32,250 nt of DNA, from the NCBI GenBank assembly GCA_023705905.1, contig BPTK01000020.1, positions 1-32,250 of the forward strand, given 5' to 3'. This document shows, one piece after another, positions 1 to 31,929 of this stretch. Every line of letters begins with the position of its first letter. The stretch's first letter is position 1. Made by a program: the position numbers and the translations under genes. The notes under the pieces were generated by a model. The model saw only the letters and a list, made by a program, of their open reading frames with translations, had not been told where the DNA came from and did no database searches. Source of the stretch: Candidatus Heimdallarchaeota archaeon (lineage in GTDB: Archaea > Asgardarchaeota > Heimdallarchaeia > Heimdallarchaeales > Heimdallarchaeaceae).

Positions 1-1111
1 TTTCAATATCTTCTATCGTGACACTAACGGTTGCTTGAGTTATAGCTACATTGCCTAGATCATCTGCGGGATTTTCATTACTTAATGTCGGTGGGTTATT
101 TGATGGTGCTGATTGTTCACTGCCGAAACTGCTCCAAGAAGGAGGAGTGTCTGAATATTTTCGGATTAACCAATTATCCAGGTAGGTGTCACATGGAACT
201 GTAGGACTTACACTCAGAGTGAAGAAATGATTTATGGCATCTATATCATTTCTCCACCCGCAATCAGTATCGCTATAAATGATGTCCCTATTTTCATCCA
301 ATACCTTTATGTCACAAGTATGAGCAACAAGATTAAAGTTTTCAAACACAAAAATGTACCAAGTATCCTCAGAATAATCTCCTACATCATTCCAACTTCC
401 ATCAAAATAGCCAATCCAAGGATCACTATTTCTAAAACCACCATACCACCCCCAAGTGTCCTGGGTGGGTGTAGTCTGGCTCTGAAATGAAAATAGATGA
501 TAATTTGCCTCATTAATGTTTGGGAGATAAACTGCCACTTCTAATGTTTTATCGGCTACATCGACTGGTCTACGAAAAACAGTACATTGCCCTGATGTGG
601 TAATTTGATTTGCACTATAGCTTCCGGTACGTGCATAATCACTACTTTGAACCATATCACCATCAGGCGCCCCCTGATAAATTTCTTCTGTCCAATTGCC
701 TACCCCATCTTCTGCACCATCAAAAGCGTCAAATACGGCATAGCCATCGCTTGTAGTTGAAACACCCGAATTACCATAAAACATTTCGAAACTGCTATAA
801 TTACCAGAATTATTTACCCACACCCAGACATAACTACCAGAAACAATCTTCTCAAACCAATAGGGTAATTCTGTCGCATTATTATATACGAAACGTAAAT
901 CATCAAAATCAGGTTGACAGTGACCCTCACAAGAAACATCGCCACCACCATCATATGATACATTCAAAAGCAACTGATACTCATCTATTTTATTGGCAAT
1001 ATTACATGTTTTATGATAATCCCAATCATTATTCCACCATGGATTATCAGCTTCAACTATTGAAAGTGGGAAAAATGATGAAATAAGGCAAGAGATTATA
1101 AGCCCTATCAA
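1..1111 (-). CDS. N-terminal part of DUF2341-like/lectin-like surface protein (truncated by window edge)
   Basis: Copy of 26658-27768; the start corresponds to 27768. N-terminus WWNNDWDYHKTCNI...LPYWFEKIVSGSYVWVWVNNSGNYSSFEMFYGN resembles DUF2341. Confidence 0.8.
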   Translation of the reverse strand, partial: MIGLIISCLISSFFPLSIVEADNPWWNNDWDYHKTCNIANKIDEYQLLLNVSYDGGGDVSCEGHCQPDFDDLRFVYNNATELPYWFEKIVSGSYVWVWVNNSGNYSSFEMFYGNSGVSTTSDGYAVFDAFDGAEDGVGNWTEEIYQGAPDGDMVQSSDYARTGSYSANQITTSGQCTVFRRPVDVADKTLEVAVYLPNINEANYHLFSFQSQTTPTQDTWGWYGGFRNSDPWIGYFDGSWNDVGDYSEDTWYIFVFENFNLVAHTCDIKVLDENRDIIYSDTDCGWRNDIDAINHFFTLSVSPTVPCDTYLDNWLIRKYSDTPPSWSSFGSEQSAPSNNPPTLSNENPADDLGNVAITQATVSVTIEDIE

Positions 1112-1131
1112 AAATATTTTTTTAGCTTCTT

Positions 1132-1587
1132 TTATTCGTCTGATGCTGCAATCCCTCCTTCAGATAATAAATGCATGACAGATAACGCAATTAGGATACC
1201 AATCAGGGAGAAAAATAGATACAAAGCCATTCCCATGCTTGGTCTGATTGTAGGATTCAATGAATAATAAATATTCCAGAGAAGACCTGCAGTACCAATC
1301 ACGCCATGCGATAATAACCCTGCGAATATGCCGATATTGATGACAGCTGATCCTTGGATGTTGGCTAATTTAGAGACAACTATCGCTACGAGAATCCCTG
1401 ACAATAGTGATACTAGGATGTTCTTAGCGATATGGGACCAAATAAGAGATGTGGCACCAACTTCATCATATTGACCCACTCCTTCTTCATCGACATAAGC
1501 AGGACCTGTAATGCTAAGGATTGAAAAAGTAGAGATTACAAAACTGAAAATTATAAGAAAAATGCTAATCTGCATTAGTTTCATCAT
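1132..1587 (-). CDS. Small multi-TM protein (about 151 aa)
   Basis: ORF 1132..1692; start re-assigned to MMKLMQISIFLIIFS, which overlaps the stop of the upstream 983-aa gene by ATGA. Hydrophobic segments throughout. Confidence 0.75.
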   Translation of the reverse strand: MMKLMQISIFLIIFSFVISTFSILSITGPAYVDEEGVGQYDEVGATSLIWSHIAKNILVSLLSGILVAIVVSKLANIQGSAVINIGIFAGLLSHGVIGTAGLLWNIYYSLNPTIRPSMGMALYLFFSLIGILIALSVMHLLSEGGIAASDE

Positions 1588-4535
1588 GTTTTTTTGTCCT
1601 CCTTCTCCGTTTGCCTTCCTGCTAATGCCGCCCAAAGACCCAAAATGAATATGAACAATCCAGCAGCACCAAGAACTACGCCCTGAATCCAAGAATAATT
1701 TGCGAAAAGAGATTCAAGACCCGCGATTGCACCTGCAGCAAGGATAAATATGAGACCTTCAACCATCAGACCCACATGTGCCTGCTCAGGCTTAAATGAT
1801 AGAAGACCAAGTAATGCAAGTATCAAAACTCCAAGATATGCATATCCGACACTTATGCCCCCTGCCGACACCGGTGAAGGGCCGAAAAACAGAGCTAATA
1901 TGTCATCTAATGTAGAAACATCTGTTATAATGTAGCTTTGCTTTGTCAATATGGGGATCCAGCCAGTGGTAAATGTTCCCAATGCCTGAAAAGTGACGTT
2001 GATGCGCCATACGTATTCCTCATCTTTATCGTAGCCGTCAACAGTTGTGAATGTAAAGTTATAATTATTTATTCCCCCCATTTCCTCAGTATAGACTATT
2101 GTTCTATTATGATAATTTGCTACTGACATGCTCACGCTTATTGTGCTCTCTGTGAGGTCCGTATAGTCCAGATACAACAATGTATCGCTTCTCCCTAAGG
2201 AAACATCAATATGATCCCAAATTGCATACTCAAAAAGCATTTCAGCGGGTATTGTAATAACAACTGAATCTTCTGCACCCGTGGGGGCTTTACCGATGTA
2301 CTCCAACTCAGCTACATCTGATTTTATACCCATATAATAGATTTTTCCAAACACCAACGTAGGAGTGATTTGCATATCAAGATCGAGATATTCTGAATGA
2401 ATAATCATCTTATCTCCGTTTTTAGCATACAAATATATATATACATATGCATTGTCTTCATAAGAAAAAGAACCATGATTATCTGCAAAAGTATATTGAT
2501 ATTCACCTAAAAATGTTTTATTAGCCCAGTTTGCCATTGTACCTAATGCAAGTGGAACATATTCAAGATCAGTCCGTAGATAAAAAGTGATATTCTGACC
2601 TTCAAACTGATCAACTACCAAAGTTCTAGTACAAAAATCAGCGTTTTCCCAGAACCACCAAACAGTGTCGTATCCTTTCCATTGAAACTCCATCTCACGT
2701 GGGAGATTAGTTGCATTGATAGTCCAAGATCCATCCGTTTCATCAGTATCGGTAAGATTTGAATCCGTGATATACCATTCTTTGCCTTCCTCATAATAAT
2801 TCTCCTCAAAACTACCACCCAATATGTGCGGCCCTAGAGAAGAAAAATACCGCACATAAAAAATATGTTTATGATAATCCCGGGTGTCAAGATTGAGCGG
2901 GATGTATCCATATGTTGAATTTTCATATCTTACACTGATGGTATAGAGACCTGAAAGTGTTGTGCCTGATGTAGTTGTACGTCCCTGACTCTTAGACCAC
3001 AATATGGGAGAATGGGTGTCATTGACATATGTCCATGCAGAGAAAAAATAGGTTGTACTAGATAACAATGCTGATTTATTATACCACGTTCCAGTATCAT
3101 TATAAATCTCCACACCTTCAGTCCAAGTAGGATAAGAATCATTACTCATCCGTATAATCGTTGATTGATTTGCTGAAGTATCAGCGTCAAAAGAATTAGT
3201 CCAGGACAAATTTATGGACCCATAGCCCTCGTTATTAACTTCAAAATCATTTGGGGGGCTTGTTGGTGGCATGATAAAATATTTTTCTTCTCCAAAATGA
3301 TATTCTTCACCATCATTGTACCAAGCCATATAATGATAATAAGTTGATGCATTGGCATCTATCATTAGCCAATAACCACCAGTATGATCTGAAAGATCTG
3401 AAAAGGCGGTCTCATTATTCTCATGAACGGTTTGATTTACAGAATTATTTCCCCATAAAAAACCAACGTCTCCCGTTACATTATAACATAGCCCAAAGAT
3501 TTCAATGGATGTTGAAGAATAAATTATCTCCAAAAGAGTATATATGTGAAAATATGAATTTACATAAATTGTTGACGAGTAATTTCCCATATTCCCGTGA
3601 TAATCTCTGCATTTAACCCTATATGCACATTCCGTATTTTCAGAAGCAATACTATGATCTACATATGTTGGTGATTCCTGCCACCCTGAATCCGTTCCAT
3701 TCCCTGTGATTTCATCAAAATAATAGAGAATAGGTGGATCTGCATCAGAAACAGTTGTCGCAGTCATTGTAATGGAATACGCTGCAATAGGCTCAGGTTC
3801 TGAATCCCATGTTGACGGATCGGGGCTAGGTGGCGCGTCATCTGTATCGTACTTGTATACCATGTGCAGTCCATCATTGACCATCCAGAAGAAGTTGCCA
3901 TCAGTACAAATAGATGTGCCTGTAATGAAACCATAATCCCAATGAAAATCCGCATCTTCCCCATCCATATGATATTTATAGACTTCTTTTTGAGTGTAGT
4001 TTGTAAGCCAAATATTGACACCATCCGTAGCTATTCCCATGCATTGCTGATCTGGAGTCCAACAACCGATATAATTGCCCTGCAGATCATACTTTTCCAC
4101 CTTGTTTTGATCGTGGAGAACAATCCATAGAAAACCATCATAACTTGTAATCTCACCAGGCCCCAGATTCACATTTGCCGTCCAATTACCATTATATCCC
4201 CCGCTCAGCGTATAATTATGGATTTTTGCTGTGCCTGCATCCCGAATATATATGAAATTCCCATATTTGGCGATTCCACCATTATCAAATCCTTCCGTAT
4301 GTGTAGTTTCAAAAGAACTCAAATAATCCCCTTCCATATCAAATTTATAGACATACCCATAATAATCCAATATCCAAATATTAACCCCATCTGTTGTGAT
4401 CCCCCCCGTCTTTGTGGAAGGTGAAGTTGACCACATTCCAGCATAATCTCCTTCCCCTGCATTGATATTTATAGAGAATACTGAGAGAAAAATAAGAAAA
4501 ACAATTATGATTGGTAACATTTTTTTAGTTTCCAT
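1584..4535 (-). CDS. 983-aa surface protein: signal peptide, beta-propeller-like repeats, FN3/Ig-like region, C-terminal multi-TM
   Basis: Signal sequence MLPIIIVFLIFLSVFSI; repeated DGVNIWxxxY..VYKxDMxGxY motifs; C-terminal hydrophobic helices; many N-x-S/T sequons; GGAGG upstream of the start. Confidence 0.85.
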   Translation of the reverse strand: METKKMLPIIIVFLIFLSVFSININAGEGDYAGMWSTSPSTKTGGITTDGVNIWILDYYGYVYKFDMEGDYLSSFETTHTEGFDNGGIAKYGNFIYIRDAGTAKIHNYTLSGGYNGNWTANVNLGPGEITSYDGFLWIVLHDQNKVEKYDLQGNYIGCWTPDQQCMGIATDGVNIWLTNYTQKEVYKYHMDGEDADFHWDYGFITGTSICTDGNFFWMVNDGLHMVYKYDTDDAPPSPDPSTWDSEPEPIAAYSITMTATTVSDADPPILYYFDEITGNGTDSGWQESPTYVDHSIASENTECAYRVKCRDYHGNMGNYSSTIYVNSYFHIYTLLEIIYSSTSIEIFGLCYNVTGDVGFLWGNNSVNQTVHENNETAFSDLSDHTGGYWLMIDANASTYYHYMAWYNDGEEYHFGEEKYFIMPPTSPPNDFEVNNEGYGSINLSWTNSFDADTSANQSTIIRMSNDSYPTWTEGVEIYNDTGTWYNKSALLSSTTYFFSAWTYVNDTHSPILWSKSQGRTTTSGTTLSGLYTISVRYENSTYGYIPLNLDTRDYHKHIFYVRYFSSLGPHILGGSFEENYYEEGKEWYITDSNLTDTDETDGSWTINATNLPREMEFQWKGYDTVWWFWENADFCTRTLVVDQFEGQNITFYLRTDLEYVPLALGTMANWANKTFLGEYQYTFADNHGSFSYEDNAYVYIYLYAKNGDKMIIHSEYLDLDMQITPTLVFGKIYYMGIKSDVAELEYIGKAPTGAEDSVVITIPAEMLFEYAIWDHIDVSLGRSDTLLYLDYTDLTESTISVSMSVANYHNRTIVYTEEMGGINNYNFTFTTVDGYDKDEEYVWRINVTFQALGTFTTGWIPILTKQSYIITDVSTLDDILALFFGPSPVSAGGISVGYAYLGVLILALLGLLSFKPEQAHVGLMVEGLIFILAAGAIAGLESLFANYSWIQGVVLGAAGLFIFILGLWAALAGRQTEKEDKKT

Positions 4536-4788
4536 CCTGGTCCTCCTTCTCCTTCTTCTTCTTCTTTTTCGATAGATACATCAGACAACCAGCCATGGAC
4601 AATACAATTACAAAGCCGAGAATGAACTTGAGATTTTGATATTCCGCATCATGTGACGTTCCCCCTATCGATTCTTCCATTTCAACAAATTCATCTATCA
4701 TCATTGAGAATGCAGCAATACACACAATGAACAATAGCAGGAATACCCCAATTCTACCCATCAGAGTGATGTCGCTTAGATCCACCAT
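4525..4788 (-). CDS. 87-aa two-TM protein with lysine-rich tail
   Basis: Two hydrophobic segments, KKKKKKEKE tail; overlapping starts/stops with neighbours. Confidence 0.8.
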   Translation of the reverse strand: MVDLSDITLMGRIGVFLLLFIVCIAAFSMMIDEFVEMEESIGGTSHDAEYQNLKFILGFVIVLSMAGCLMYLSKKKKKKEKEDQDGN

Positions 4789-5024
4789 TATTCTCGCTTC
4801 TCCTGCACTTCTCTCCAGAGTGCGAATGATTGCTTTACAAAATAGACGCCGGGAACAATAGTCCAGATGAAAAAGGCTATAGGTTTCAGAGGGTGCACCA
4901 CAGGCATAAATACTTTTGCTACGTCAATAACGGCATTGATGACAAAATAGCCAACCCCGAACAAAAACAGATTGCGTGCGAAGGCGTATATCTCCTTTAG
5001 CATGAGCACATGTAATGTGCTCAT
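4788..5024 (-). CDS. 78-aa two-TM protein (start may be Met8 at 5003)
   Basis: Hydrophobic segments; ends directly at the start of the 87-aa gene; TATA-like elements upstream. Confidence 0.75.
   Translation of the reverse strand: MSTLHVLMLKEIYAFARNLFLFGVGYFVINAVIDVAKVFMPVVHPLKPIAFFIWTIVPGVYFVKQSFALWREVQEKRE
5002..5024. promoter_or_regulatory. Perfect inverted repeat over the start region of the 78-aa gene
   Basis: ATGAGCACAT-GTA-ATGTGCTCAT; TATA-like AATATAAA (5025-5032) and CATTTATAGCAC (5042-5053) adjacent. Confidence 0.6.
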
Positions 5025-5248
5025 AATATAAATAATAGTAACATTTATAGCACATTTGCGGGAAATAGAGTATATAATCCCCCGCCCCCACTCCTATAGT
5101 ATTAATTATTTCATTATACTCATTGTTTTGAATCTAGTCTTATTACCACGTCATGTCGCCCGAAAAAAGATGTGCTATTTTAAAAAAAGTTTGATTAAAG
5201 ATTCTTTGAACGACTAAAACTCAATGAAAAACTAATTCGAAACCCTCT

Positions 5249-6139
5249 TCATACTGTTTGTATGCCCCTCTTTTCAGCTAGTCTTTCCAATGCTCGTTTT
5301 AGCTCTCTATTATCCTCTTCTAATCGTTCGATGGCAGGGTTTCTTTCCTCCGTTTTTGAAAGAATGCCCTGTGTTCTCACGTATCCCTCTAGTTGCTGTT
5401 CAAATGTTAGAGGGTATGGTTGAGGGTATGGTTGCATGCCTGGTGGATAGAATTGCTGCTGTTGAGATGGCAGGGGGTTTACTGGTATTGGATATTGATT
5501 TGGAACATTCCATCCTTGAGGCGGCTGTTGTGTAGGTATAGTACCATATGACAGAGTGGGCTGTGCCTCAGGTACTCTCATTCCTTGATACGGCTGCTGC
5601 CAATACTCGGCTTTTTTCCGTTGTAGATCTTGATACTTTTGAACTTCGAATGAATAGGCTTCAGCTATAGCTGCTGCAATCTCTGGAGTCATGTTTTTTT
5701 GCAATCTCACAATATCACCCTGGAGCTGTGCGGGTTGCGGTAGCTCACCTGCTCTAAGCTGAACACGATCGACGAGAATGGCGATTGTTCTCTTTTTTAG
5801 TCCATACTGATGTGGTTTACCGTTCAGAAAATGTTCGAACCATTCGGATGGTTCAAGATCTTCGATATTAACCACAGTAGCTGGAGGCTCTACATCTTTT
5901 ACAACGGGTTCCATCTGTTGCTGTTCTGATAATGCTTTTTGAACTTCATCTCTTATTATTTGCTGGATATCTTGTGTTTCTGCTGGTTGCACGGATGTTG
6001 TGGTTGTTTCTTGGATAACTGGAACTTTTGGTTCACCTTGTGATGATGGTATTAATGGAGGGTATCCCCCCTGTTCAACGGATTTTCGAGTTGTTGGTTG
6101 TATTTCTGGTGGCAAAATGTTTTCCCGTATTTTATTCAT
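5249..6139 (-). CDS. Pro/Gln-rich protein with C-terminal coiled coil (about 296 aa)
   Basis: ORF 5249..6196; likely start MNKIRENILPPEIQP; QPPQ/PYPQPYP-rich, C-terminal RLEEDNRELKRALERLAEKRG. Confidence 0.75.
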   Translation of the reverse strand: MNKIRENILPPEIQPTTRKSVEQGGYPPLIPSSQGEPKVPVIQETTTTSVQPAETQDIQQIIRDEVQKALSEQQQMEPVVKDVEPPATVVNIEDLEPSEWFEHFLNGKPHQYGLKKRTIAILVDRVQLRAGELPQPAQLQGDIVRLQKNMTPEIAAAIAEAYSFEVQKYQDLQRKKAEYWQQPYQGMRVPEAQPTLSYGTIPTQQPPQGWNVPNQYPIPVNPLPSQQQQFYPPGMQPYPQPYPLTFEQQLEGYVRTQGILSKTEERNPAIERLEEDNRELKRALERLAEKRGIQTV

Positions 6140-6213
6140 TTGATCTCCATTGTTTGATTTCAAAAAAAAGATAGATGCAATCAGTGCTGTATGCATTGAT
6201 TGCCAATCCGGTA

Positions 6214-6417
6214 TTACTCTTCTGTTTTGTCTTCTGGGGTTTCCTTGGGCTTCTCATCAACTTCTTCTTTTTTCTCCACGGGTTTTTTTATGCTACATTT
6301 TTCATTTTCGTCTATGACCCGATTGATCACCCCATCATAACTTTCTCCGAATTTTCCCATGTCGCTTAGTTTTTTGTCGGTTGCCTCAGATATTTTTATG
6401 GCTTTTTCTTTTCCCAT
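6214..6417 (-). CDS. RHH-like small protein with acidic tail
   Basis: AIKISEATDKKLSDMG...DGVINRVIDENEK matches the RHH/CopG-like pattern; homologous to 31930..32172. Confidence 0.7.
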   Translation of the reverse strand: MGKEKAIKISEATDKKLSDMGKFGESYDGVINRVIDENEKCSIKKPVEKKEEVDEKPKETPEDKTEE

Positions 6418-6545
6418 TATATTTCACCTAGTTAACATAGTTCACTGAGTATAAATAGTTTTCTCAATGATGAATGCTATGCCTTCAGCACTACAGAGAT
6501 AATGCCTTCACGCCTGTTCTCTGCAAACATTTTTAGAGAAAATAC

Positions 6546-7310: not shown

Positions 7311-7379
7311 AAATATCAAATCCAATCATGGCAATATATATTTTTCTATCAAGAAAACTGCAAAAAACTACACTATTTT

Positions 7380-7475: not shown

Positions 7476-7507
7476 TATTAAAAAACATTATCTAAAAAAT
7501 AAAAAAT

Positions 7508-7586: not shown

Positions 7587-7628
7587 CGTATTAGTTCATA
7601 GTGAAAACTGCGTACTCAACATATGCAT

Positions 7629-10487: not shown

Positions 10488-11027
10488 TCACCATTCTACC
10501 TTATCAAAATCATCAATAATGTCTGCACCAGTAATATCAAGATATACCTGGGTACAGGTTAAACTGCTATGACCAAGAATCTTCTGAAGATTCCTAAGAT
10601 TCATACCACTTTTAAGACAGTGAACGGCAAAACTATGACGAAAAGTATGCGGATGCACATTATAGCCATCTGGTGTATACTTATAAACAATGTTTCTAAC
10701 TTGGCGATCTGAGATTTTAAACAATTTATCCTTTGGATGTAATCCATCAAGATAAAAACCAAGAATGTTACCCAATTCTTTTTCAAGGGGTATCACTCGG
10801 TCCTTACCAAATTTTCCCTGTCTCACAAAAATAATATCATTCTGGATATCTCGTTTTTTTAAATTTACTAATTCGCTGACACGTAAACCAGTTCGCCAGA
10901 GCATTAGCAAAATTAAATAGTTTCTTTTTTTGTCTTTTTTTGCATCATCCAACATTTCTAAAACTACCGAATCTTCAATATATTTCGGTAACTTCTTAGC
11001 TTTGTGTTCAAACACTGGTTTTATCAT
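10488..11027 (-). CDS. Tyrosine recombinase/integrase, catalytic domain only (179 aa)
   Basis: TGLRVSELVNL (Arg I), HPHTFRHSFAVH (HxxR), LGHSSLTCTQVY (H/Y): complete catalytic signature; no room for a full core-binding domain. Confidence 0.9.
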   Translation of the reverse strand: MIKPVFEHKAKKLPKYIEDSVVLEMLDDAKKDKKRNYLILLMLWRTGLRVSELVNLKKRDIQNDIIFVRQGKFGKDRVIPLEKELGNILGFYLDGLHPKDKLFKISDRQVRNIVYKYTPDGYNVHPHTFRHSFAVHCLKSGMNLRNLQKILGHSSLTCTQVYLDITGADIIDDFDKVEW

Positions 11028-11107
11028 ATTACTCCGTATGCAATGCCCATTTATAAGCTTTCCGTTCTTATATCATTTAGGAAGTAATCATGGTTTTTAA
11101 CTAAAAA

Positions 11108-11148
11108 ATACACTCATCATTTCATTTCAAATCAATTCAAATCAATAA
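11108..11148. repeat. 41-bp direct repeat, copy 1
   Basis: ATACACTCATCATTTCATTTCAAATCAATTCAAATCAATAA, with internal tandem TCAAATCAAT. Confidence 0.9.
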
Positions 11149-11211
11149 TTTTGAATGTAGTTTTCTTGAAGCAATTCTTCATTCTGTAATACGGGGTGTG
11201 TTTAGTGAAAT

Positions 11212-11252
11212 ATACACTCATCATTTCATTTCAAATCAATTCAAATCAATAA
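11212..11252. repeat. 41-bp direct repeat, copy 2
   Basis: Identical to 11108-11148, offset 104 bp. Confidence 0.9.
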
Positions 11253-14894: not shown

Positions 14895-14901
14895 ATTATT
14901 T

Positions 14902-18930: not shown

Positions 18931-19269
18931 TCACTTTTCCTTGATGCCGAAATGCTTGATGATTGCTTCAAGCATCACCTTATTTTTGTTTACCTTCTCC
19001 TTTAATTTCACAAGTTCAGGGTTCTTATTGAACGTATAGACCTGTGAAGAAGGAAGAATAAATTTTGTATCAATAAAAACAATACCGGTTATACCTATAA
19101 CTATTATTATCGCCCAATAATACCATTCAAACCCCATAGGTGATTGTATGATGTACAAATAAAATATCATTACAAAATTCACTATCGCTATATATGAAGC
19201 TAATCTCATCTGCCAGACCTTCAACTTACCCGCCATGATACTTGCTTTCTTCAATCTATGTTTCATCAT
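18931..19269 (-). CDS. 112-aa protein with TM hairpin
   Basis: Two hydrophobic segments and a helical tail. Confidence 0.7.
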   Translation of the reverse strand: MMKHRLKKASIMAGKLKVWQMRLASYIAIVNFVMIFYLYIIQSPMGFEWYYWAIIIVIGITGIVFIDTKFILPSSQVYTFNKNPELVKLKEKVNKNKVMLEAIIKHFGIKEK

Positions 19270-19280: not shown

Positions 19281-20630
19281 CTATTTTTCCTTTTGATATA
19301 TATAAAAATTTGCATGCAATTCATATCTGTTTTTGATTTCCTTTATCAAATCCCATTCTGGCAGATTGTTTTCTATCCATCTTGTAAATTGTCTATGCTT
19401 CACATGATTTCTTTGTTTAGTATTCATATTAGAAGAATAAATAATTACAAAATTATTAGATAATGAAAATACCCGCTTCATATAGAGATTAAATATTTCA
19501 TCCTCAACAAGATGATAAATCACATCTAACGATAAAGTAAGATCTGCTGTTATAGATTTGTTGTCTTCAAAGTATTTTGGTTCATACAAAGAGAAACTCT
19601 TTGTTTTGTCATTCTTAAAATGGTTCATGCACAATTCTAGTGCAGTATTTGAAACATCCAAACCAATATAATTTGGAAAAACAAGTAAGGATAATTGGTT
19701 GCCATCGCCACAACCGAGTTCTATAACTGAATTAATTTCATTATTTTCTACAAATGAATTTATAATTTCAGCTTTGAATTTAGCAAATTTACCTTGTGAA
19801 CCCGCTCCAGAATTACCGCCATCGCTATATCTTTTTTCCCAATATCTGGACGACCCGTGGAAAAAGAAATTTCTTACCAATCCTGTTTTTATGATGAGAG
19901 TTACCGCATACAAAATTAGAAAATATAAAAGAATTATAAATAATCCGATTCCTCTAACATTATTATTGATGACCCCCAAAACTATGTCAATTATGGTAAA
20001 TGCTGTGATTCCCACACAAATATAGAGTGCGTCTCCATAGCTCCCTATTTTACTTCTTTGTAATCTCTCACCCTTTGTTTTATTCACATTGAGAATTTTA
20101 CCTATAAAAATGAATATCCCACGATTCCCTGATGGTTTTTTTAATAAATTATAAAGTTGCCGTCTTATTCCATGTAACGTCCACGTCCCAAACCATAAGA
20201 TAGCCGTTAGCACCCCAATAATTATTGGAAGGAAATGTTCCCCTGACCGGATTGATATCCCTATACCTACAGCTGGAAAAAGCATATGTGGAACAACTCT
20301 TATATTAAGCCAATCCAAAGTGCCACCTATCCCTTTAGGGGTACATCTATATCTTGCAATCTTACCATCACAGTAATCACATATAAACCAAAAGTTCAAA
20401 AAAAAGACAGCGATGAGAAGAGAAATATTACTACCATATGCAAAAAAAATGGCTGAAAGTCCGCCAAACACTATTCCAGCTGATGAAACTTGATTTGCAG
20501 TAATTCTAGTGTATAATAATATCTTTGCAAGATAGAGCGCTATCTCATCATAAAGACGAAGGACATATGAAAGCTTTTTCGCCTTCTCTTTTGCACATAA
20601 CTTTCTTAGTTCCTCTATCTTTTCAACCAT
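19281..20630 (-). CDS. Fusion: N-terminal CDP-alcohol phosphatidyltransferase-like membrane domain + C-terminal SAM methyltransferase
   Basis: DYCDGKIARYRCTPKGIGGTLDWLNI (CDP-OH-P-like motif) and YWEKRYSDGGNSGAGSQGKFAKFK...VIELGCGDGNQLS (class I MTase). Confidence 0.85.
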   Translation of the reverse strand: MVEKIEELRKLCAKEKAKKLSYVLRLYDEIALYLAKILLYTRITANQVSSAGIVFGGLSAIFFAYGSNISLLIAVFFLNFWFICDYCDGKIARYRCTPKGIGGTLDWLNIRVVPHMLFPAVGIGISIRSGEHFLPIIIGVLTAILWFGTWTLHGIRRQLYNLLKKPSGNRGIFIFIGKILNVNKTKGERLQRSKIGSYGDALYICVGITAFTIIDIVLGVINNNVRGIGLFIILLYFLILYAVTLIIKTGLVRNFFFHGSSRYWEKRYSDGGNSGAGSQGKFAKFKAEIINSFVENNEINSVIELGCGDGNQLSLLVFPNYIGLDVSNTALELCMNHFKNDKTKSFSLYEPKYFEDNKSITADLTLSLDVIYHLVEDEIFNLYMKRVFSLSNNFVIIYSSNMNTKQRNHVKHRQFTRWIENNLPEWDLIKEIKNRYELHANFYIYQKEK

Positions 20631-20641
20631 ACATCAGCTCT

Positions 20642-21205
20642 TCATTTTTCAAGTCTATAAATTATCACCTCAGTATAGACTGTTTGATTCATAGGAAGCG
20701 CAATCCATCTATGTGAAAGAGGAGGAAAACGAACATATGTTCCGACAATTTTTACAATCCTTAACTTACAAATCCTTACAAGATTACGCATATTGGTTTT
20801 TCTAAAACAGTGAATGTGAGTTATTTCCTCACCAATGCCATTGAAAAAATCGCCATACAAAATTCTATTATTACTAGGAGTAGATATTATTATTCTTCCC
20901 TTCTCCGATAGAACTTCTCTGCACTCCATTAGTAATGTTTTAAAGTGTTCGATATGCTCAATAAACTCATTTAGAAAAACAACATCAAATTTTTTATCGG
21001 AAACTTCCCTCGGCAGACCATTCTCCAAGTCATGTGTTATATCCCCTCCTTCGACATCAATACCTGTATATTCAACATCTTTTGGTAGCAATGTTTTTAT
21101 TATCTTATCCTTGCCACACCCTAAGTCTAAAACTGTTTCACCATTGGAAACATTACCAACAGATATAGTTTTGTTAATTCTATATTTAATTCCTTTGTTT
21201 TTCAT
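20642..21205 (-). CDS. Class I SAM-dependent methyltransferase
   Basis: GETVLDLGCGKDKIIKTLLPKDVEYTGIDVEGGD; LNEFIEHIEH. Confidence 0.85.
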   Translation of the reverse strand: MKNKGIKYRINKTISVGNVSNGETVLDLGCGKDKIIKTLLPKDVEYTGIDVEGGDITHDLENGLPREVSDKKFDVVFLNEFIEHIEHFKTLLMECREVLSEKGRIIISTPSNNRILYGDFFNGIGEEITHIHCFRKTNMRNLVRICKLRIVKIVGTYVRFPPLSHRWIALPMNQTVYTEVIIYRLEK

Positions 21206-22206
21206 GACATCAAAACATTTATAATTTTATAAATTGACATCGCTCTCGCCTCTATTGGAAAGTCAACTATTCTTTTTCTTGCTTTTCCCCTTAATTCTTC
21301 CGGAGCATTTAGAGCTTTTTTTATCGCCTCAGCTGTTTTCTCCTCGTCGCCGTATACAGTATAAAAACCTGCATTCCCAACAAACTCAGGCATCCCACTT
21401 CTTTCTTTTGTCACGACTGGAATGCAACCACACGCCATCCCTTCAGCAGGCGTAAGCCCAAAGGCTTCGTAGTAGGATAGCTGACATATTACTTTTGCTT
21501 TCTGATACCACTTCAATAAATCTTTATCAGAAACAAAACCAGTAAATTTGACATTTGGTGGAGCAATAGATTTTAAGTGTTCAATTGAACCATCGATAAA
21601 TTTGCCTATAACAACAAAACGAGCCTCGGGAATATATTTGGCAGATTTCACAAAGGTTTCAATTCCTTTTCTTTTTAGATTTGACCATTTAATCCCCCCT
21701 ACCGTTATTACGAGATTGCCTTCTTTTTCTCCAGATGGCTTAAACTTTTTGATATTAACACCGTTATAAACAAGTTTTAACTGTTTTGGCGTTACTTTTT
21801 CTAAAACCTCATTCTTGGTAAACTTGGAAACAGGTAAAACAACGTCAGCATTTTTTAATACAAATTTTGCAGGTATTTTCTCCTTCAAATTCGTAAAAGC
21901 TCCATAACCAATTTTGGGTTCATTTGCACAATCATATCCCCCTGCTACCACAATAGATTTTTTCCTAAATAATCTACCAAACAATACTGGAAAGAACGAA
22001 TCCCAACTTGCAAACCAACAAAAAACAACATCACTCCATTTCACTAAGAAAAATGTTTTAAACAAAAATATGGGAAAGGATATGGAAGACAGGGAGATAG
22101 GTCTAACATCGAACTCTTTTTGAAGGCACTTATAATCGGTTTCCACGAAAGACTGTTTTCTGTTGCCTATAAAAAGAAGTTTTGTTTTTTCTTTCATCAA
22201 AATCAT
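21202..22206 (-). CDS. Glycosyltransferase family 4-like
   Basis: YYEAFGLTPAEGMACGCIPVVTKERSGMPEFVG: ExFGxxxxE-type motif. Confidence 0.88.
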   Translation of the reverse strand: MILMKEKTKLLFIGNRKQSFVETDYKCLQKEFDVRPISLSSISFPIFLFKTFFLVKWSDVVFCWFASWDSFFPVLFGRLFRKKSIVVAGGYDCANEPKIGYGAFTNLKEKIPAKFVLKNADVVLPVSKFTKNEVLEKVTPKQLKLVYNGVNIKKFKPSGEKEGNLVITVGGIKWSNLKRKGIETFVKSAKYIPEARFVVIGKFIDGSIEHLKSIAPPNVKFTGFVSDKDLLKWYQKAKVICQLSYYEAFGLTPAEGMACGCIPVVTKERSGMPEFVGNAGFYTVYGDEEKTAEAIKKALNAPEELRGKARKRIVDFPIEARAMSIYKIINVLMS

Positions 22207-23345
22207 CTCTCAATCGTTTCATACAACTCTATCAGTTTCCCCCCTTGTTTTTCCCAGTTGTATTTTTTTAATGCAGCATCTAAACCATTTTTCCCCAGTT
22301 TTTCACATAGTTGCGGGTCATCTCTTAATTTTATCATTGCTTCTTTAATCGCATTAAGATTGTAATCTACTACTAACCCACACTGTAACTCTTCAGTCGT
22401 ATCCCCTGAGTAAGTGTTCTTGGTGCAAATAATCGGTCTTCCACAAGTCATGGCATCAAACTGCTTGTTTGTAGTGGCAATTTTATTCAATGTTGCAGAG
22501 GGGTCAAGAGGACATAACACAACATTGGATTTACATGTTTCAGGAACAACGCGATTAAAGGTTATTTGGCCCAAAAACTCAACATTTTCATATTTGGCAG
22601 ATGTCTTTTCTACTTCATGATAAAGTTTTATGTTCTCTTTTTTACCTGCAAGTACAAATCTAATGTTTTTTGTTTTACCCAATACGTCAATGATTTCTGG
22701 GAGAAATCTTTTTTTAGATAAGTTAGTGACAAAAGAAGCTGTAAAAATTTTGTTTTTTGGTGGATTATAACTCTCCGAAACCAAATCATTACAATTCATC
22801 ACAATAGTAATAGGTACGTTAATTATTTTTTTAAAATACTTTTTAAATGGTTCATTAACAGTTATCACGTGATCTACATTTTTAACCAATTTTTTTTCCA
22901 TTCTAAACACAAAGTTTATAACAAACTGAGGTACATCTTCTTCAATCATATAGCCAAAGATTTCATGGGCATCATAAACAAGTTTACATCCGAGTTTTTT
23001 CTTTAACCGTACACCAGTCTGCAATGTATCTAAATCATGGCAATGGACCACATCAAAATCAAAACCATCTTTGTATAACTTTATTCCCATTCTGTATGAC
23101 TTTTTCCACCACAGAAGATTCCTAAAAAGATTATTTGGTAACGCCCTCATCAAGAAACCATTATGTAATCTAATGAGTTTTATCCCATCGACAACATCTC
23201 TTGATGCATACTCATGTCTACGATCCCAAACAATAACGGCGACCTCATGTCCAGCATCAACTAAAGTTTTTGCTTCTTTATGAACACGAGGATCAACCAT
23301 AAATGGATTGGAAAGAATCATTAGAACCTTCATTTTTTCATCCAA
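22203..23345 (-). CDS. Glycosyltransferase family 4-like
   Basis: MKVLMILSNPFMVDPRVHKEAKTLVDAGHEVAVI; ATNKQFDAMTCGRPIICTKNTYSG. Confidence 0.85.
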   Translation of the reverse strand: MDEKMKVLMILSNPFMVDPRVHKEAKTLVDAGHEVAVIVWDRRHEYASRDVVDGIKLIRLHNGFLMRALPNNLFRNLLWWKKSYRMGIKLYKDGFDFDVVHCHDLDTLQTGVRLKKKLGCKLVYDAHEIFGYMIEEDVPQFVINFVFRMEKKLVKNVDHVITVNEPFKKYFKKIINVPITIVMNCNDLVSESYNPPKNKIFTASFVTNLSKKRFLPEIIDVLGKTKNIRFVLAGKKENIKLYHEVEKTSAKYENVEFLGQITFNRVVPETCKSNVVLCPLDPSATLNKIATTNKQFDAMTCGRPIICTKNTYSGDTTEELQCGLVVDYNLNAIKEAMIKLRDDPQLCEKLGKNGLDAALKKYNWEKQGGKLIELYETIER

Positions 23346-23516: not shown

Positions 23517-23548
23517 ACGGTTTCATAACGGTACTTTGTTAATATACT

Positions 23549-24326: not shown

Positions 24327-24607
24327 GTCTCAGGTCCTTCCTCTTCAGGCATCGCTTGAAACTTGTAGATTATCGTCAGAAATCCACACAGAGATCCAAT
24401 CAAGATGAACAACACCCTTGCAGCATCATCACTGAATACCCCTATAGATGCAGAAGAGTATGGAATCTGAATCATCATACTCAAACCAGCAAGGGCGAAA
24501 AATAAGAAAGAATCAAAAGCGAAAAAAGGATAAGACTCCCACGCGAAACCCAGCAGCATAATGATGAATGCAAAGACAATTATCAACAGATATATTTGTA
24601 ACAACAT
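24323..24607 (-). CDS. 94-aa multi-TM protein
   Basis: Hydrophobic segments; overlapping neighbours. Confidence 0.75.
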   Translation of the reverse strand: MLLQIYLLIIVFAFIIMLLGFAWESYPFFAFDSFLFFALAGLSMMIQIPYSSASIGVFSDDAARVLFILIGSLCGFLTIIYKFQAMPEEEGPET

Positions 24608-27600
24608 TATTTATCATTCTCCGGTGGTTTCTTTTTTATAAACACTCTGTAGACAAGGCCTGCAGTTGCTAGACCTAATAATATCGCCATGAGGTCAGCC
24701 AATCCGACGGGGAGAACGACACGGGTGAATATCAGGACAGCTATCAGATAGCCGATCAGGGAGTAATTATTTGATTTCCATGTATAGATCGCTACGCCTA
24801 TGACGCCGAAGAACAATCCCCAAAAGAAATCACTGAATAAGGCAATATATGGACCGAAACCTAAAGCCAAAAATCCATCTTCTGCAATTATATTGCTGAA
24901 ATCTAATCCCTCTATATCGGGGTCACCTATATTTTTAAGAGGATCTTCATCTTCATCTTCATCTTCATCAGGGGTAAACTCAGCTTTTGTTGTAAAATAA
25001 TAAATCGCCGATACATTGTCGTAAGTATCGTTTGCTGTAATTTTCCAGTAGTAGATTGTTGAATAGGAGTTTGCTCCTGCATAAACATAAGATACGCTTT
25101 CATTGAGAACAGTGAGATTTGTTTGTCTATGTGTCCAATCACTGGCATCAGGAGATGTATAAAAATTGCATGTCATCTGATGTCCATCATTATCAGTGAT
25201 AGTTACGCTGCATGTTGGTTGCAGTTCTATATTTGATGCTGCATTTTTAGGCATCTCATTGTTGAAGAGAGGAATTATGTTTGTAGTGTTAGTAGTTGCA
25301 TCATCTGTGCTTCCTGCACTCCAACAATTATCTGTATTATTCCATGACCATGCTTTATAAAAATGATGTGTTCCAGGGTCTAAACCCGTATCCGATGTTG
25401 ATTCTCCACTATCATTATATAAAAAGTTATTATCCCCTGGACCCCAGCCACCACCAGCTATATTGTACTTATAAACCTCATTAGTAGAATACTTGAGAAT
25501 CCATATATTCGCACTATCGGTGGCTATGCCGAAGGGGGCAGTATTTCCAGTCCATACATCGAGATACTCTCCAGCCATATCATACTTATAAACCGCACCG
25601 TAGTAGTCAACAACCCAGATATTATTACCATCCGTAACGATGCCTCGGGGTGTATCATTTGGAACTGTTAGATTCCATGAACCAATATAGTTTCCAGTCA
25701 TATCATACTTATAAACAGCCGCAGTACTTCCGTCAACAACCCAGATATTCGTATCATCCGCAGCGATGCCATGGGGATTTTCATTTGTAATTGTCCAGGA
25801 ATCAATATAGTTTCCAAGCATATCATATTTATAAACATCCTTATTAGTGCCAGTGTTAACCACCCAGATGTTCACCCCGTTAGTACCCATACCACGGGGG
25901 TAATAATTTAGAGCTGTGCACTCCCATGAATCAATATAGTTTCCAACCATATCGTACTTATAAACCTTATCAGCACCTCCATCAACCACCCAGATATTAG
26001 TACCATCAGTGGCGATGCCATGGGATACAGCATTTATTAGACTCCATGAGCCAAGGTGGTCTTCATCTGCAGCTGTAGACCATTCTACAAGAGTGGAATC
26101 GGCTTTGCTGTCATCTGTCCAAGAGAGGTCTATTTGGAATCTACCATCTGCGGTTGCTGTAAAACTTGCAGGTGGATCAAGAATGTATTGTGATCTAGTT
26201 GTAAAATTATAGGTAGCGTTTGTCCAATCTATACCATCAGTCACATTGATATACCATACGATATCTGTAGAACAGGGTAATGGTGTAATTGTATTGGCTG
26301 ACTTAGAACCATTCGAAGCGTCATTTGCTCCTGTGTTGGTTATGTACTGACCTTGGATAGTCCAATCAAAAGTTTCAATATCTTCTATCGTGACACTAAC
26401 GGTTGCTTGAGTTATAGCTACATTGCCTAGATCATCTGCGGGATTTTCATTACTTAATGTCGGTGGGTTATTAGCAGCTGTTGTAAAATTATAAGTAGCT
26501 TTTGTCCAGCCATACCCATCTGTTACATTGACATACCATACGATGTCTGTAGAATAGGGCAATGGTGTAATTGTATTGGCCGACTTAGAACCATTCGAGG
26601 CATCATTTGCACCAGTATTTGTTATATACTGCCCCTGAATAGTCCAATTAAACGTATTTTCAATATCTTCTATCGTGACACTAACGGTTGCTTGAGTTAT
26701 AGCTACATTGCCTAGATCATCTGCGGGATTTTCATTACTTAATGTCGGTGGGTTATTTGATGGTGCTGATTGTTCACTGCCGAAACTGCTCCAAGAAGGA
26801 GGAGTGTCTGAATATTTTCGGATTAACCAATTATCCAGGTAGGTGTCACATGGAACTGTAGGACTTACACTCAGAGTGAAGAAATGATTTATGGCATCTA
26901 TATCATTTCTCCACCCGCAATCAGTATCGCTATAAATGATGTCCCTATTTTCATCCAATACCTTTATGTCACAAGTATGAGCAACAAGATTAAAGTTTTC
27001 AAACACAAAAATGTACCAAGTATCCTCAGAATAATCTCCTACATCATTCCAACTTCCATCAAAATAGCCAATCCAAGGATCACTATTTCTAAAACCACCA
27101 TACCACCCCCAAGTGTCCTGGGTGGGTGTAGTCTGGCTCTGAAATGAAAATAGATGATAATTTGCCTCATTAATGTTTGGGAGATAAACTGCCACTTCTA
27201 ATGTTTTATCGGCTACATCGACTGGTCTACGAAAAACAGTACATTGCCCTGATGTGGTAATTTGATTTGCACTATAGCTTCCGGTACGTGCATAATCACT
27301 ACTTTGAACCATATCACCATCAGGCGCCCCCTGATAAATTTCTTCTGTCCAATTGCCTACCCCATCTTCTGCACCATCAAAAGCGTCAAATACGGCATAG
27401 CCATCGCTTGTAGTTGAAACACCCGAATTACCATAAAACATTTCGAAACTGCTATAATTACCAGAATTATTTACCCACACCCAGACATAACTACCAGAAA
27501 CAATCTTCTCAAACCAATAGGGTAATTCTGTCGCATTATTATATACGAAACGTAAATCATCAAAATCAGGTTGACAGTGACCCTCACAAGAAACATCGCC

Positions 27601-27768
27601 ACCACCATCATATGATACATTCAAAAGCAACTGATACTCATCTATTTTATTGGCAATATTACATGTTTTATGATAATCCCAATCATTATTCCACCATGGA
27701 TTATCAGCTTCAACTATTGAAAGTGGGAAAAATGATGAAATAAGGCAAGAGATTATAAGCCCTATCAA
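24607..27768 (-). CDS. 1053-aa surface protein: DUF2341-like, lectin-like, tandem Ig-like domains, beta-propeller repeats, C-terminal multi-TM
   Basis: DUF2341-like N-terminus; two NNPPTLSNENPADDLGN domains; five DxxNIWVVDxx..VYKYDMxGNYIxSW repeats; FN3-like repeats; D/E hexamer repeat; C-terminal TM helices. Confidence 0.88.
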   Translation of the reverse strand: MIGLIISCLISSFFPLSIVEADNPWWNNDWDYHKTCNIANKIDEYQLLLNVSYDGGGDVSCEGHCQPDFDDLRFVYNNATELPYWFEKIVSGSYVWVWVNNSGNYSSFEMFYGNSGVSTTSDGYAVFDAFDGAEDGVGNWTEEIYQGAPDGDMVQSSDYARTGSYSANQITTSGQCTVFRRPVDVADKTLEVAVYLPNINEANYHLFSFQSQTTPTQDTWGWYGGFRNSDPWIGYFDGSWNDVGDYSEDTWYIFVFENFNLVAHTCDIKVLDENRDIIYSDTDCGWRNDIDAINHFFTLSVSPTVPCDTYLDNWLIRKYSDTPPSWSSFGSEQSAPSNNPPTLSNENPADDLGNVAITQATVSVTIEDIENTFNWTIQGQYITNTGANDASNGSKSANTITPLPYSTDIVWYVNVTDGYGWTKATYNFTTAANNPPTLSNENPADDLGNVAITQATVSVTIEDIETFDWTIQGQYITNTGANDASNGSKSANTITPLPCSTDIVWYINVTDGIDWTNATYNFTTRSQYILDPPASFTATADGRFQIDLSWTDDSKADSTLVEWSTAADEDHLGSWSLINAVSHGIATDGTNIWVVDGGADKVYKYDMVGNYIDSWECTALNYYPRGMGTNGVNIWVVNTGTNKDVYKYDMLGNYIDSWTITNENPHGIAADDTNIWVVDGSTAAVYKYDMTGNYIGSWNLTVPNDTPRGIVTDGNNIWVVDYYGAVYKYDMAGEYLDVWTGNTAPFGIATDSANIWILKYSTNEVYKYNIAGGGWGPGDNNFLYNDSGESTSDTGLDPGTHHFYKAWSWNNTDNCWSAGSTDDATTNTTNIIPLFNNEMPKNAASNIELQPTCSVTITDNDGHQMTCNFYTSPDASDWTHRQTNLTVLNESVSYVYAGANSYSTIYYWKITANDTYDNVSAIYYFTTKAEFTPDEDEDEDEDPLKNIGDPDIEGLDFSNIIAEDGFLALGFGPYIALFSDFFWGLFFGVIGVAIYTWKSNNYSLIGYLIAVLIFTRVVLPVGLADLMAILLGLATAGLVYRVFIKKKPPENDK
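24943..24970. repeat. Hexamer microsatellite (ATCTTC)n encoding DEDEDEDED
   Basis: atcttcatcttcatcttcatcttcatca. Confidence 0.8.
26373..26472. repeat. 100-bp exact direct repeat (unit 1) within the 1053-aa gene
   Basis: TTTCAATATCTTCTATCG...GTGGGTTATT identical to 26658-26757 and to window 1-100; encodes the N-terminal part of a tandem Ig-like domain (NNPPTLSNENPADDLGNVAITQATVSVTIEDIE). Confidence 0.95.
26658..26757. repeat. 100-bp exact direct repeat (unit 2)
   Basis: Offset 285 bp from unit 1; flanking bases differ on both sides. Confidence 0.95.
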
Positions 27769-27788
27769 AAATATTTTTTTAGCTTCTT

Positions 27789-28244
27789 TTATTCGTCTGA
27801 TGCTGCAATCCCTCCTTCAGATAATAAATGCATGACAGATAACGCAATTAGGATACCAATCAGGGAGAAAAATAGATACAAAGCCATTCCCATGCTTGGT
27901 CTGATTGTAGGATTCAATGAATAATAAATATTCCAGAGAAGACCTGCAGTACCAATCACGCCATGCGATAATAACCCTGCGAATATGCCGATATTGATGA
28001 CAGCTGATCCTTGGATGTTGGCTAATTTAGAGACAACTATCGCTACGAGAATCCCTGACAATAGTGATACTAGGATGTTCTTAGCGATATGGGACCAAAT
28101 AAGAGATGTGGCACCAACTTCATCATATTGACCCACTCCTTCTTCATCGACATAAGCAGGACCTGTAATGCTAAGGATTGAAAAAGTAGAGATTACAAAA
28201 CTGAAAATTATAAGAAAAATGCTAATCTGCATTAGTTTCATCAT
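27789..28244 (-). CDS. Second copy of the 151-aa TM protein
   Basis: Identical to 1132-1587. Confidence 0.75.
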   Translation of the reverse strand: MMKLMQISIFLIIFSFVISTFSILSITGPAYVDEEGVGQYDEVGATSLIWSHIAKNILVSLLSGILVAIVVSKLANIQGSAVINIGIFAGLLSHGVIGTAGLLWNIYYSLNPTIRPSMGMALYLFFSLIGILIALSVMHLLSEGGIAASDE

Positions 28245-31192
28245 GTTTTTTTGTCCTCCTTCTCCGTTTGCCTTCCTGCTAATGCCGCCCAAAGACCCAA
28301 AATGAATATGAACAATCCAGCAGCACCAAGAACTACGCCCTGAATCCAAGAATAATTTGCGAAAAGAGATTCAAGACCCGCGATTGCACCTGCAGCAAGG
28401 ATAAATATGAGACCTTCAACCATCAGACCCACATGTGCCTGCTCAGGCTTAAATGATAGAAGACCAAGTAATGCAAGTATCAAAACTCCAAGATATGCAT
28501 ATCCGACACTTATGCCCCCTGCCGACACCGGTGAAGGGCCGAAAAACAGAGCTAATATGTCATCTAATGTAGAAACATCTGTTATAATGTAGCTTTGCTT
28601 TGTCAATATGGGGATCCAGCCAGTGGTAAATGTTCCCAATGCCTGAAAAGTGACGTTGATGCGCCATACGTATTCCTCATCTTTATCGTAGCCGTCAACA
28701 GTTGTGAATGTAAAGTTATAATTATTTATTCCCCCCATTTCCTCAGTATAGACTATTGTTCTATTATGATAATTTGCTACTGACATGCTCACGCTTATTG
28801 TGCTCTCTGTGAGGTCCGTATAGTCCAGATACAACAATGTATCGCTTCTCCCTAAGGAAACATCAATATGATCCCAAATTGCATACTCAAAAAGCATTTC
28901 AGCGGGTATTGTAATAACAACTGAATCTTCTGCACCCGTGGGGGCTTTACCGATGTACTCCAACTCAGCTACATCTGATTTTATACCCATATAATAGATT
29001 TTTCCAAACACCAACGTAGGAGTGATTTGCATATCAAGATCGAGATATTCTGAATGAATAATCATCTTATCTCCGTTTTTAGCATACAAATATATATATA
29101 CATATGCATTGTCTTCATAAGAAAAAGAACCATGATTATCTGCAAAAGTATATTGATATTCACCTAAAAATGTTTTATTAGCCCAGTTTGCCATTGTACC
29201 TAATGCAAGTGGAACATATTCAAGATCAGTCCGTAGATAAAAAGTGATATTCTGACCTTCAAACTGATCAACTACCAAAGTTCTAGTACAAAAATCAGCG
29301 TTTTCCCAGAACCACCAAACAGTGTCGTATCCTTTCCATTGAAACTCCATCTCACGTGGGAGATTAGTTGCATTGATAGTCCAAGATCCATCCGTTTCAT
29401 CAGTATCGGTAAGATTTGAATCCGTGATATACCATTCTTTGCCTTCCTCATAATAATTCTCCTCAAAACTACCACCCAATATGTGCGGCCCTAGAGAAGA
29501 AAAATACCGCACATAAAAAATATGTTTATGATAATCCCGGGTGTCAAGATTGAGCGGGATGTATCCATATGTTGAATTTTCATATCTTACACTGATGGTA
29601 TAGAGACCTGAAAGTGTTGTGCCTGATGTAGTTGTACGTCCCTGACTCTTAGACCACAATATGGGAGAATGGGTGTCATTGACATATGTCCATGCAGAGA
29701 AAAAATAGGTTGTACTAGATAACAATGCTGATTTATTATACCACGTTCCAGTATCATTATAAATCTCCACACCTTCAGTCCAAGTAGGATAAGAATCATT
29801 ACTCATCCGTATAATCGTTGATTGATTTGCTGAAGTATCAGCGTCAAAAGAATTAGTCCAGGACAAATTTATGGACCCATAGCCCTCGTTATTAACTTCA
29901 AAATCATTTGGGGGGCTTGTTGGTGGCATGATAAAATATTTTTCTTCTCCAAAATGATATTCTTCACCATCATTGTACCAAGCCATATAATGATAATAAG
30001 TTGATGCATTGGCATCTATCATTAGCCAATAACCACCAGTATGATCTGAAAGATCTGAAAAGGCGGTCTCATTATTCTCATGAACGGTTTGATTTACAGA
30101 ATTATTTCCCCATAAAAAACCAACGTCTCCCGTTACATTATAACATAGCCCAAAGATTTCAATGGATGTTGAAGAATAAATTATCTCCAAAAGAGTATAT
30201 ATGTGAAAATATGAATTTACATAAATTGTTGACGAGTAATTTCCCATATTCCCGTGATAATCTCTGCATTTAACCCTATATGCACATTCCGTATTTTCAG
30301 AAGCAATACTATGATCTACATATGTTGGTGATTCCTGCCACCCTGAATCCGTTCCATTCCCTGTGATTTCATCAAAATAATAGAGAATAGGTGGATCTGC
30401 ATCAGAAACAGTTGTCGCAGTCATTGTAATGGAATACGCTGCAATAGGCTCAGGTTCTGAATCCCATGTTGACGGATCGGGGCTAGGTGGCGCGTCATCT
30501 GTATCGTACTTGTATACCATGTGCAGTCCATCATTGACCATCCAGAAGAAGTTGCCATCAGTACAAATAGATGTGCCTGTAATGAAACCATAATCCCAAT
30601 GAAAATCCGCATCTTCCCCATCCATATGATATTTATAGACTTCTTTTTGAGTGTAGTTTGTAAGCCAAATATTGACACCATCCGTAGCTATTCCCATGCA
30701 TTGCTGATCTGGAGTCCAACAACCGATATAATTGCCCTGCAGATCATACTTTTCCACCTTGTTTTGATCGTGGAGAACAATCCATAGAAAACCATCATAA
30801 CTTGTAATCTCACCAGGCCCCAGATTCACATTTGCCGTCCAATTACCATTATATCCCCCGCTCAGCGTATAATTATGGATTTTTGCTGTGCCTGCATCCC
30901 GAATATATATGAAATTCCCATATTTGGCGATTCCACCATTATCAAATCCTTCCGTATGTGTAGTTTCAAAAGAACTCAAATAATCCCCTTCCATATCAAA
31001 TTTATAGACATACCCATAATAATCCAATATCCAAATATTAACCCCATCTGTTGTGATCCCCCCCGTCTTTGTGGAAGGTGAAGTTGACCACATTCCAGCA
31101 TAATCTCCTTCCCCTGCATTGATATTTATAGAGAATACTGAGAGAAAAATAAGAAAAACAATTATGATTGGTAACATTTTTTTAGTTTCCAT
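28241..31192 (-). CDS. Second copy of the 983-aa surface protein
   Basis: Identical translation to 1584..4535. Confidence 0.85.
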   Translation of the reverse strand: METKKMLPIIIVFLIFLSVFSININAGEGDYAGMWSTSPSTKTGGITTDGVNIWILDYYGYVYKFDMEGDYLSSFETTHTEGFDNGGIAKYGNFIYIRDAGTAKIHNYTLSGGYNGNWTANVNLGPGEITSYDGFLWIVLHDQNKVEKYDLQGNYIGCWTPDQQCMGIATDGVNIWLTNYTQKEVYKYHMDGEDADFHWDYGFITGTSICTDGNFFWMVNDGLHMVYKYDTDDAPPSPDPSTWDSEPEPIAAYSITMTATTVSDADPPILYYFDEITGNGTDSGWQESPTYVDHSIASENTECAYRVKCRDYHGNMGNYSSTIYVNSYFHIYTLLEIIYSSTSIEIFGLCYNVTGDVGFLWGNNSVNQTVHENNETAFSDLSDHTGGYWLMIDANASTYYHYMAWYNDGEEYHFGEEKYFIMPPTSPPNDFEVNNEGYGSINLSWTNSFDADTSANQSTIIRMSNDSYPTWTEGVEIYNDTGTWYNKSALLSSTTYFFSAWTYVNDTHSPILWSKSQGRTTTSGTTLSGLYTISVRYENSTYGYIPLNLDTRDYHKHIFYVRYFSSLGPHILGGSFEENYYEEGKEWYITDSNLTDTDETDGSWTINATNLPREMEFQWKGYDTVWWFWENADFCTRTLVVDQFEGQNITFYLRTDLEYVPLALGTMANWANKTFLGEYQYTFADNHGSFSYEDNAYVYIYLYAKNGDKMIIHSEYLDLDMQITPTLVFGKIYYMGIKSDVAELEYIGKAPTGAEDSVVITIPAEMLFEYAIWDHIDVSLGRSDTLLYLDYTDLTESTISVSMSVANYHNRTIVYTEEMGGINNYNFTFTTVDGYDKDEEYVWRINVTFQALGTFTTGWIPILTKQSYIITDVSTLDDILALFFGPSPVSAGGISVGYAYLGVLILALLGLLSFKPEQAHVGLMVEGLIFILAAGAIAGLESLFANYSWIQGVVLGAAGLFIFILGLWAALAGRQTEKEDKKT

Positions 31193-31445
31193 CCTGGTCC
31201 TCCTTCTCCTTCTTCTTCTTCTTTTTCGATAGATACATCAGACAACCAGCCATGGACAATACAATTACAAAGCCGAGAATGAACTTGAGATTTTGATATT
31301 CCGCATCATGTGACGTTCCCCCTATCGATTCTTCCATTTCAACAAATTCATCTATCATCATTGAGAATGCAGCAATACACACAATGAACAATAGCAGGAA
31401 TACCCCAATTCTACCCATCAGAGTGATGTCGCTTAGATCCACCAT
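31182..31445 (-). CDS. Second copy of the 87-aa two-TM protein
   Basis: Identical to 4525..4788. Confidence 0.8.
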   Translation of the reverse strand: MVDLSDITLMGRIGVFLLLFIVCIAAFSMMIDEFVEMEESIGGTSHDAEYQNLKFILGFVIVLSMAGCLMYLSKKKKKKEKEDQDGN

Positions 31446-31681
31446 TATTCTCGCTTCTCCTGCACTTCTCTCCAGAGTGCGAATGATTGCTTTACAAAAT
31501 AGACGCCGGGAACAATAGTCCAGATGAAAAAGGCTATAGGTTTCAGAGGGTGCACCACAGGCATAAATACTTTTGCTACGTCAATAACGGCATTGATGAC
31601 AAAATAGCCAACCCCGAACAAAAACAGATTGCGTGCGAAGGCGTATATCTCCTTTAGCATGAGCACATGTAATGTGCTCAT
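31445..31681 (-). CDS. Second copy of the 78-aa two-TM protein
   Basis: Identical to 4788..5024. Confidence 0.75.
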   Translation of the reverse strand: MSTLHVLMLKEIYAFARNLFLFGVGYFVINAVIDVAKVFMPVVHPLKPIAFFIWTIVPGVYFVKQSFALWREVQEKRE

Positions 31682-31929
31682 AATATAAATAATAGTAACA
31701 TTTATAGCACATTTGCGGGAAATAGAGTATATAATGCCCCATCCCCACTCCTATATATTTAATTATTTCATTATACTCATTGTTTTGAATCTAGTCTTAT
31801 TGCACGTCATGTCGCCCGAAAAAGCCTATGTTGTTTTGAAAAAAGTTGTTTTAAAGAAAAAAGAAAAGTTGATTTATAAAAAAAGAAGGGAAATTAAAAA
31901 AATAAATGAGGGAGATTTTTGCAAACCAT

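Follow-up and report, generated by a model that had tools for sequence, protein, structure and literature searches.

A perfect 5-kb repeat in a contig of a Heimdallarchaeota bin is probably for the most part an assembly effect around an apparently new, unclassified virus-like element

According to the authors of CheckV, circular genomes assembled from short reads are left with terminal repeats, and copies of the same genome are sometimes joined by the assembler; they attributed the large duplications in 6,543 contigs to such concatenation (PMC8116208). Here, we analysed a stretch of 32,250 nucleotides, hereafter the window, which is the entire contig C19 of a Heimdall-group bin, so that its first and last bases (1 and 32250) are assembly ends. 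Like the CheckV contigs, the window carries the kind of end repeat that results from going round a circular template. However, only the first copy lies at a contig end, starting at base 1, whereas the second stops 515 bp short of the other end and precedes 515 bp of what would be another genome, so that the repeat is not strictly terminal; moreover, the duplication makes up 15.7% of the contig, which is under the 20% filter of the CheckV paper (PMC8116208). It would escape an automatic test for terminal repeats. With regard to its content, the element described below resembles HeimV1, a circular or integrated element of Ca. Heimdallarchaeum endolithica (~30 kb, PMC8813620), in size, in its circular virus-like nature and in carrying an integrase, both being assigned to Heimdall-group archaea. 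HeimV1 has been described as related to phages and as encoding nucleic-acid enzymes together with viral structural proteins, among them a tail fibre (PMC8813620), and by this description it is set apart from our element, in which none of these enzymes and structural proteins were recognised. Aloposons encode proteins of 3,000-6,000 aa in tandem genes (PMC8813620), whereas the largest ORF of the window encodes 1,053 aa. As a lead only, pleomorphic and spindle-shaped archaeal viruses are alike in their small membrane proteins and large membrane-anchored glycoprotein-like spikes, and also in having a putative NTPase, an integrase and no recognised capsid or tail genes. However, Pfam and PHROGs scans of the element gave no significant family match to the hallmark proteins of these viruses, there was no family-level match to pleolipovirus core genes, and the element exceeds the ~7-16 kb stated for pleolipoviruses (PMC13107129).

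The segments of the window and the genes at the edge of the repeat are as follows.

1-5078, no strand: repeat copy 1 (node R), 0 mismatches to 26658-31735
26658-31735, no strand: second copy of the repeat (node R), read again after one turn of the loop
26373-26472 (= 26658-26757 = 1-100), no strand: 100-bp exact repeat within the spike-like gene, its left edge being contig base 1
5079-26657, no strand: branch B, the remainder of the loop, which together with R forms the 26,657-bp unit
31736-32250, no strand: branch C, 515 bp outside the 26,657-bp unit, the probable exit into a diverged relative
5249-6196, minus strand: Gln/Pro-rich protein, 315 aa, present in branch B and absent from branch C at the corresponding position
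6214-6417, minus strand: 67-aa protein of branch B, weak DUF7557/VapB-antitoxin match
31930-32163, minus strand: 77-aa protein of branch C, homologous to the 67-aa protein above, resembling ribbon-helix-helix proteins by eye and with no strong match in Pfam

The original prediction had equated 1-5078 with 26658-31735 at a period of 26,657 bp and with an abrupt right boundary, and all of this is exact: self-comparison at offset 26657 gave 0 mismatches, noncoding parts included, and the copies split at 5079/31736, the first mismatches being 5079, 5084, 5085, 5099-5101 and 5145. The predicted ~90 bp of imperfect homology past the boundary was likewise found and spans about 90-120 bp, with 60 of 66 bases identical over 5079-5144 and similarity by blastn reaching 5201/31857, before the sequence content diverges. 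Gene content does differ beyond this point as claimed, but the change is smaller, since branch C encodes a diverged homolog of the 6214-6417 protein. Node R itself comprises the 5' half of the first spike-like gene (cut by the contig start), a 186-aa and a 983-aa membrane or surface protein, two small membrane proteins and a leader region. Besides this, no exact direct repeat of the 26,657-bp unit other than the 100-bp one exceeds 41 bp.

How such a repeat is to be read depends on the kind of assembly. The bin is an Illumina short-read k-mer assembly: the Illumina adapter stub AGATCGGAAGAGC has 53 exact copies in the bin, compared with 0 for the reversed control, all of its 26 reverse-strand copies lie within the first 48 bases of contigs, the five forward copies whose position could be judged all lie within the last 49 bases, and contig starts carry readable longer TruSeq adapter strings. 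Since the adapter runs at contig ends are ~45-48 bp long and the contigs C4 and C117 overlap by exactly 45 bp at their ends, the k-mer size of the assembly can be put at about 45-48, and at this size a repeat of 5,078 bp stays unresolved as a single graph node, with no separate consensus for its copies. From the behaviour of k-mer assemblers, all genomes crossing a stretch are expected to merge into one node, and the two identical 5,078-bp copies would be the same node printed twice. Identity of the copies is thus forced by the short-read k-mer assembly, and therefore its perfection is neither biological evidence nor evidence for exchange. Untrimmed Illumina adapter stands at about 50 contig ends of this public MAG, e.g. 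at the starts of C111, C124 and C127.

The window is very probably a short-read contig that runs once round a virus-like element of 26,657 bp, which may be circular, circularly permuted or concatemeric, and then exits into a related genome. According to this explanation, the contig would complete one turn of the element, read its own initial 5,078 bp again and leave the loop at the first difference from a second, related genome of the same sample. The graph path would be rep-R-B-rep-rep-R-C, i.e. a closed loop (26,657 bp) with one side exit, in which the loop is taken to be a physical circle, the exit another strain, and node R to have no further incoming edge. Several signatures in the sequence argue for such a path. 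Contig base 1 is the exact left edge of the 100-bp repeat, for which the chance is about one in ten thousand under random contig starts, and because two different bases (26372 and 26657) precede this repeat, leftward extension must stop there. After the split, the longest exact run common to branches B and C is 43 bp, just below k. The contig end thus coincides with a repeat node that exceeds k in length, and no B/C run after the split reaches k, as expected of a loop in a short-read graph. Within ~179 kb of other sequence of the bin, no exact direct repeat of at least 46 bp was found within a contig stretch. Furthermore, the 1053-aa spike-like frame is continuous across the loop junction 26657/26658, so that this gene is intact across the junction, as expected for the originally predicted circle. 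These graph signatures give good support to the proposal that the contig of a 26,657-bp circle had run on into another strain. The loop length of 26,657 bp carries an uncertainty of +/-285 bp, because the 100-bp repeat is longer than k and the count of spike repeat units (~285 bp each) is affected. A closed circle and a linear genome that is circularly permuted or concatemeric would give the same graph loop.

The exit leads into sequence related to branch B. Aligned to the 67-aa protein, the 77-aa protein scores 83, compared with a shuffled mean of 33 (sd 5.7) and 0 of 2000 shuffles as high, and its gene has the same place and strand as the 67-aa gene, beside the same leader and without the intervening 315-aa gene. 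Branch C therefore appears to belong to a diverged relative of the element. Judged by its presence and absence between the branches, the 315-aa gene at 5249-6196 is an accessory gene. No continuation of branch C was found in the bin. Identity to the left of 5078 is guaranteed for this other genome over only about one k-mer (~45 bp), and its share of R may be anywhere from about 45 bp to 5,078 bp or more.

The 26,657-bp unit has 35 ORFs, all on the minus strand, with 85% of the sequence coding. Its main genes are:

24607-27768, minus strand: spike-like surface protein, 1053 aa, TTG start as listed, DUF2341 domain
1584-4535, minus strand: second spike-like protein, 983 aa, residues 26-180 with 40% identity to a part of the 1053-aa protein
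10488-11027, minus strand: tyrosine recombinase, 179 aa, catalytic domain only (PF00589 1.3e-28; phrog_216 1.6e-34)
14037-14915, minus strand: putative NTPase, 292 aa, Walker-A-like TGAMGSAKTAV by eye, matching only phrog_22963 (2.2e-23; no assigned function)
18931-19269, minus strand: small membrane protein, 112 aa, common to contig C73 of the bin
19281-23345, minus strand: CDP-alcohol phosphatidyltransferase/methyltransferase fusion, methyltransferase and two family-4 glycosyltransferases (Pfam)

Many further small membrane proteins are encoded. The 1053-aa spike-like protein is rich in N-X-S/T and has a membrane segment at its C-terminus. A repeat segment is common to both spike-like proteins (25453-26073 and 1584-4535), with 40% identity over ~155 aa, and judged from sequence this suggests that they are paralogous surface proteins. 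Upstream of the integrase, a 569-bp noncoding stretch contains a 52-bp direct repeat (92%) at 11097-11252 with an inverted repeat nearby (11186-11199/11388-11401), and this stretch is a candidate origin or attachment region. No polymerase, capsid or tail gene was recognisable among the proteins scanned against Pfam and PHROGs. A Rep-Arvir (DUF7845) replication protein, an idea taken from PMC13107129, was considered for 12162-13022 and dropped, as Pfam gave no match. Single-sequence structure models of the NTPase-like and a 286-aa protein reached pLDDT values of 32.5 and 33.9, too poor for a structure search. We regard the element as integrase-bearing and virus-like, with a plasmid as the alternative that remains.

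A loop in the graph is not the only way to obtain R twice. Recent recombination could have given two co-resident related elements a truly identical 5-kb spike cassette, flanked by B in one and by C in the other. Receptor-binding gene modules are commonly exchanged in viruses, and here the diverged branches B and C, with their 77-aa and 67-aa homologs and the 315-aa gene present or missing, meet the same end of R. However, any genome sharing about one k-mer (~45 bp) before 5078 would yield the same printed R; a short conserved leader would suffice for this, given the ~90% identity of B and C in the 66 bp that follow. The spike module may really have been exchanged, but as an explanation of the window we consider the shared cassette unlikely, and it is quite unlikely that two diverged Asgard-associated elements share an identical 5-kb spike module because co-resident archaeal viruses pass a surface-protein cassette between them. 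The suggestion of tandem or co-resident elements with a recent spike-cassette exchange had rested on the 5-kb identity, which the short-read k-mer assembly forces, and thus draws no support from it.

Taken literally, the contig reads R-B-R-C and the element encodes an integrase, both of which would suit a true tandem array of two related integrated elements, head-to-tail on one molecule. Short reads cannot support the path R-B-R-C, however, and neither end of the contig is flanked by host sequence. Copies of a tandem integrated provirus would be bounded by attachment sites next to an integrase or tRNA gene, whereas R is bounded within the spike gene and a gene leader, away from the integrase (10488-11027), and no tRNA was found in the window. 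As the internal 100-bp repeat also explains the contig start without a second incoming genome, such an array is very improbable. Closer to the preferred reading is a linear genome that is circularly permuted or terminally redundant, due to headful packaging or concatemers, instead of a closed circle. It would give an identical loop in the assembly graph (PMC8116208), while two weak arguments point away from it: among the proteins scanned against PHROGs there is no terminase or tailed-virus family, and the location of all genes on one strand is a plasmid- or pleomorphic-virus-like layout. The linear form is rated as distinctly unlikely, and a loop read once round before the exit into a relative is preferred.

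The bin comprises 3.74 Mb in 396 contigs and is 81.6% complete. For its ribosomal protein S8, a Candidatus Heimdallarchaeota MAG gave a match with 97% identity, followed by 18 matches of 79-95% identity to other Heimdallarchaeota or Asgard-group MAGs; the bin is therefore an Asgard archaeon of the Heimdall group. The element is assigned to this host through binning only, with base composition (G+C of ~37% compared with ~34-36% in host contigs) and four-base usage being compatible and not decisive. Relatives were searched for in several collections. IMG/VR gave no close relative of the NTPase-like, both spike-like and the 112-aa proteins or of a leader sequence, and phage records gave none of the NTPase-like and 1053-aa spike-like proteins, the one weak match (27%) being a Methanofastidiosa Caudoviricetes record. 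Among 84,980 species genomes there was no close relative of the NTPase-like protein, and in genomes of the class or phylum the NTPase-like, 983-aa spike-like, 112-aa and branch-C proteins gave nothing convincing outside their own bin. Short matches in related genomes resemble AT-rich chance, and no clear CRISPR spacer match was seen. With nothing close in the collections searched, the element appears to be new. The 112-aa two-helix membrane protein recurs in the same bin on contig C73 (17,217 bp) at 4219-4557, with 80% amino acid and 82% DNA identity, and in none of the other genomes among 228 of the phylum. The C73 element is also one-stranded in its gene layout and has its own integrase, but is otherwise unrelated, and in both elements the 112-aa gene adjoins glycosylation genes.

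The repeat is thus probably for the most part an assembly effect, and what looks striking becomes the ordinary sign of a complete genome. It provides an example of a loop with an overhang into a strain variant that terminal-repeat tests miss, and a caution that perfect identity of copies within one short-read contig should not be read as recent exchange. For the Heimdallarchaeota, a group for which few viruses have been described, it yields a probably complete, unclassified circular element from one of their bins.
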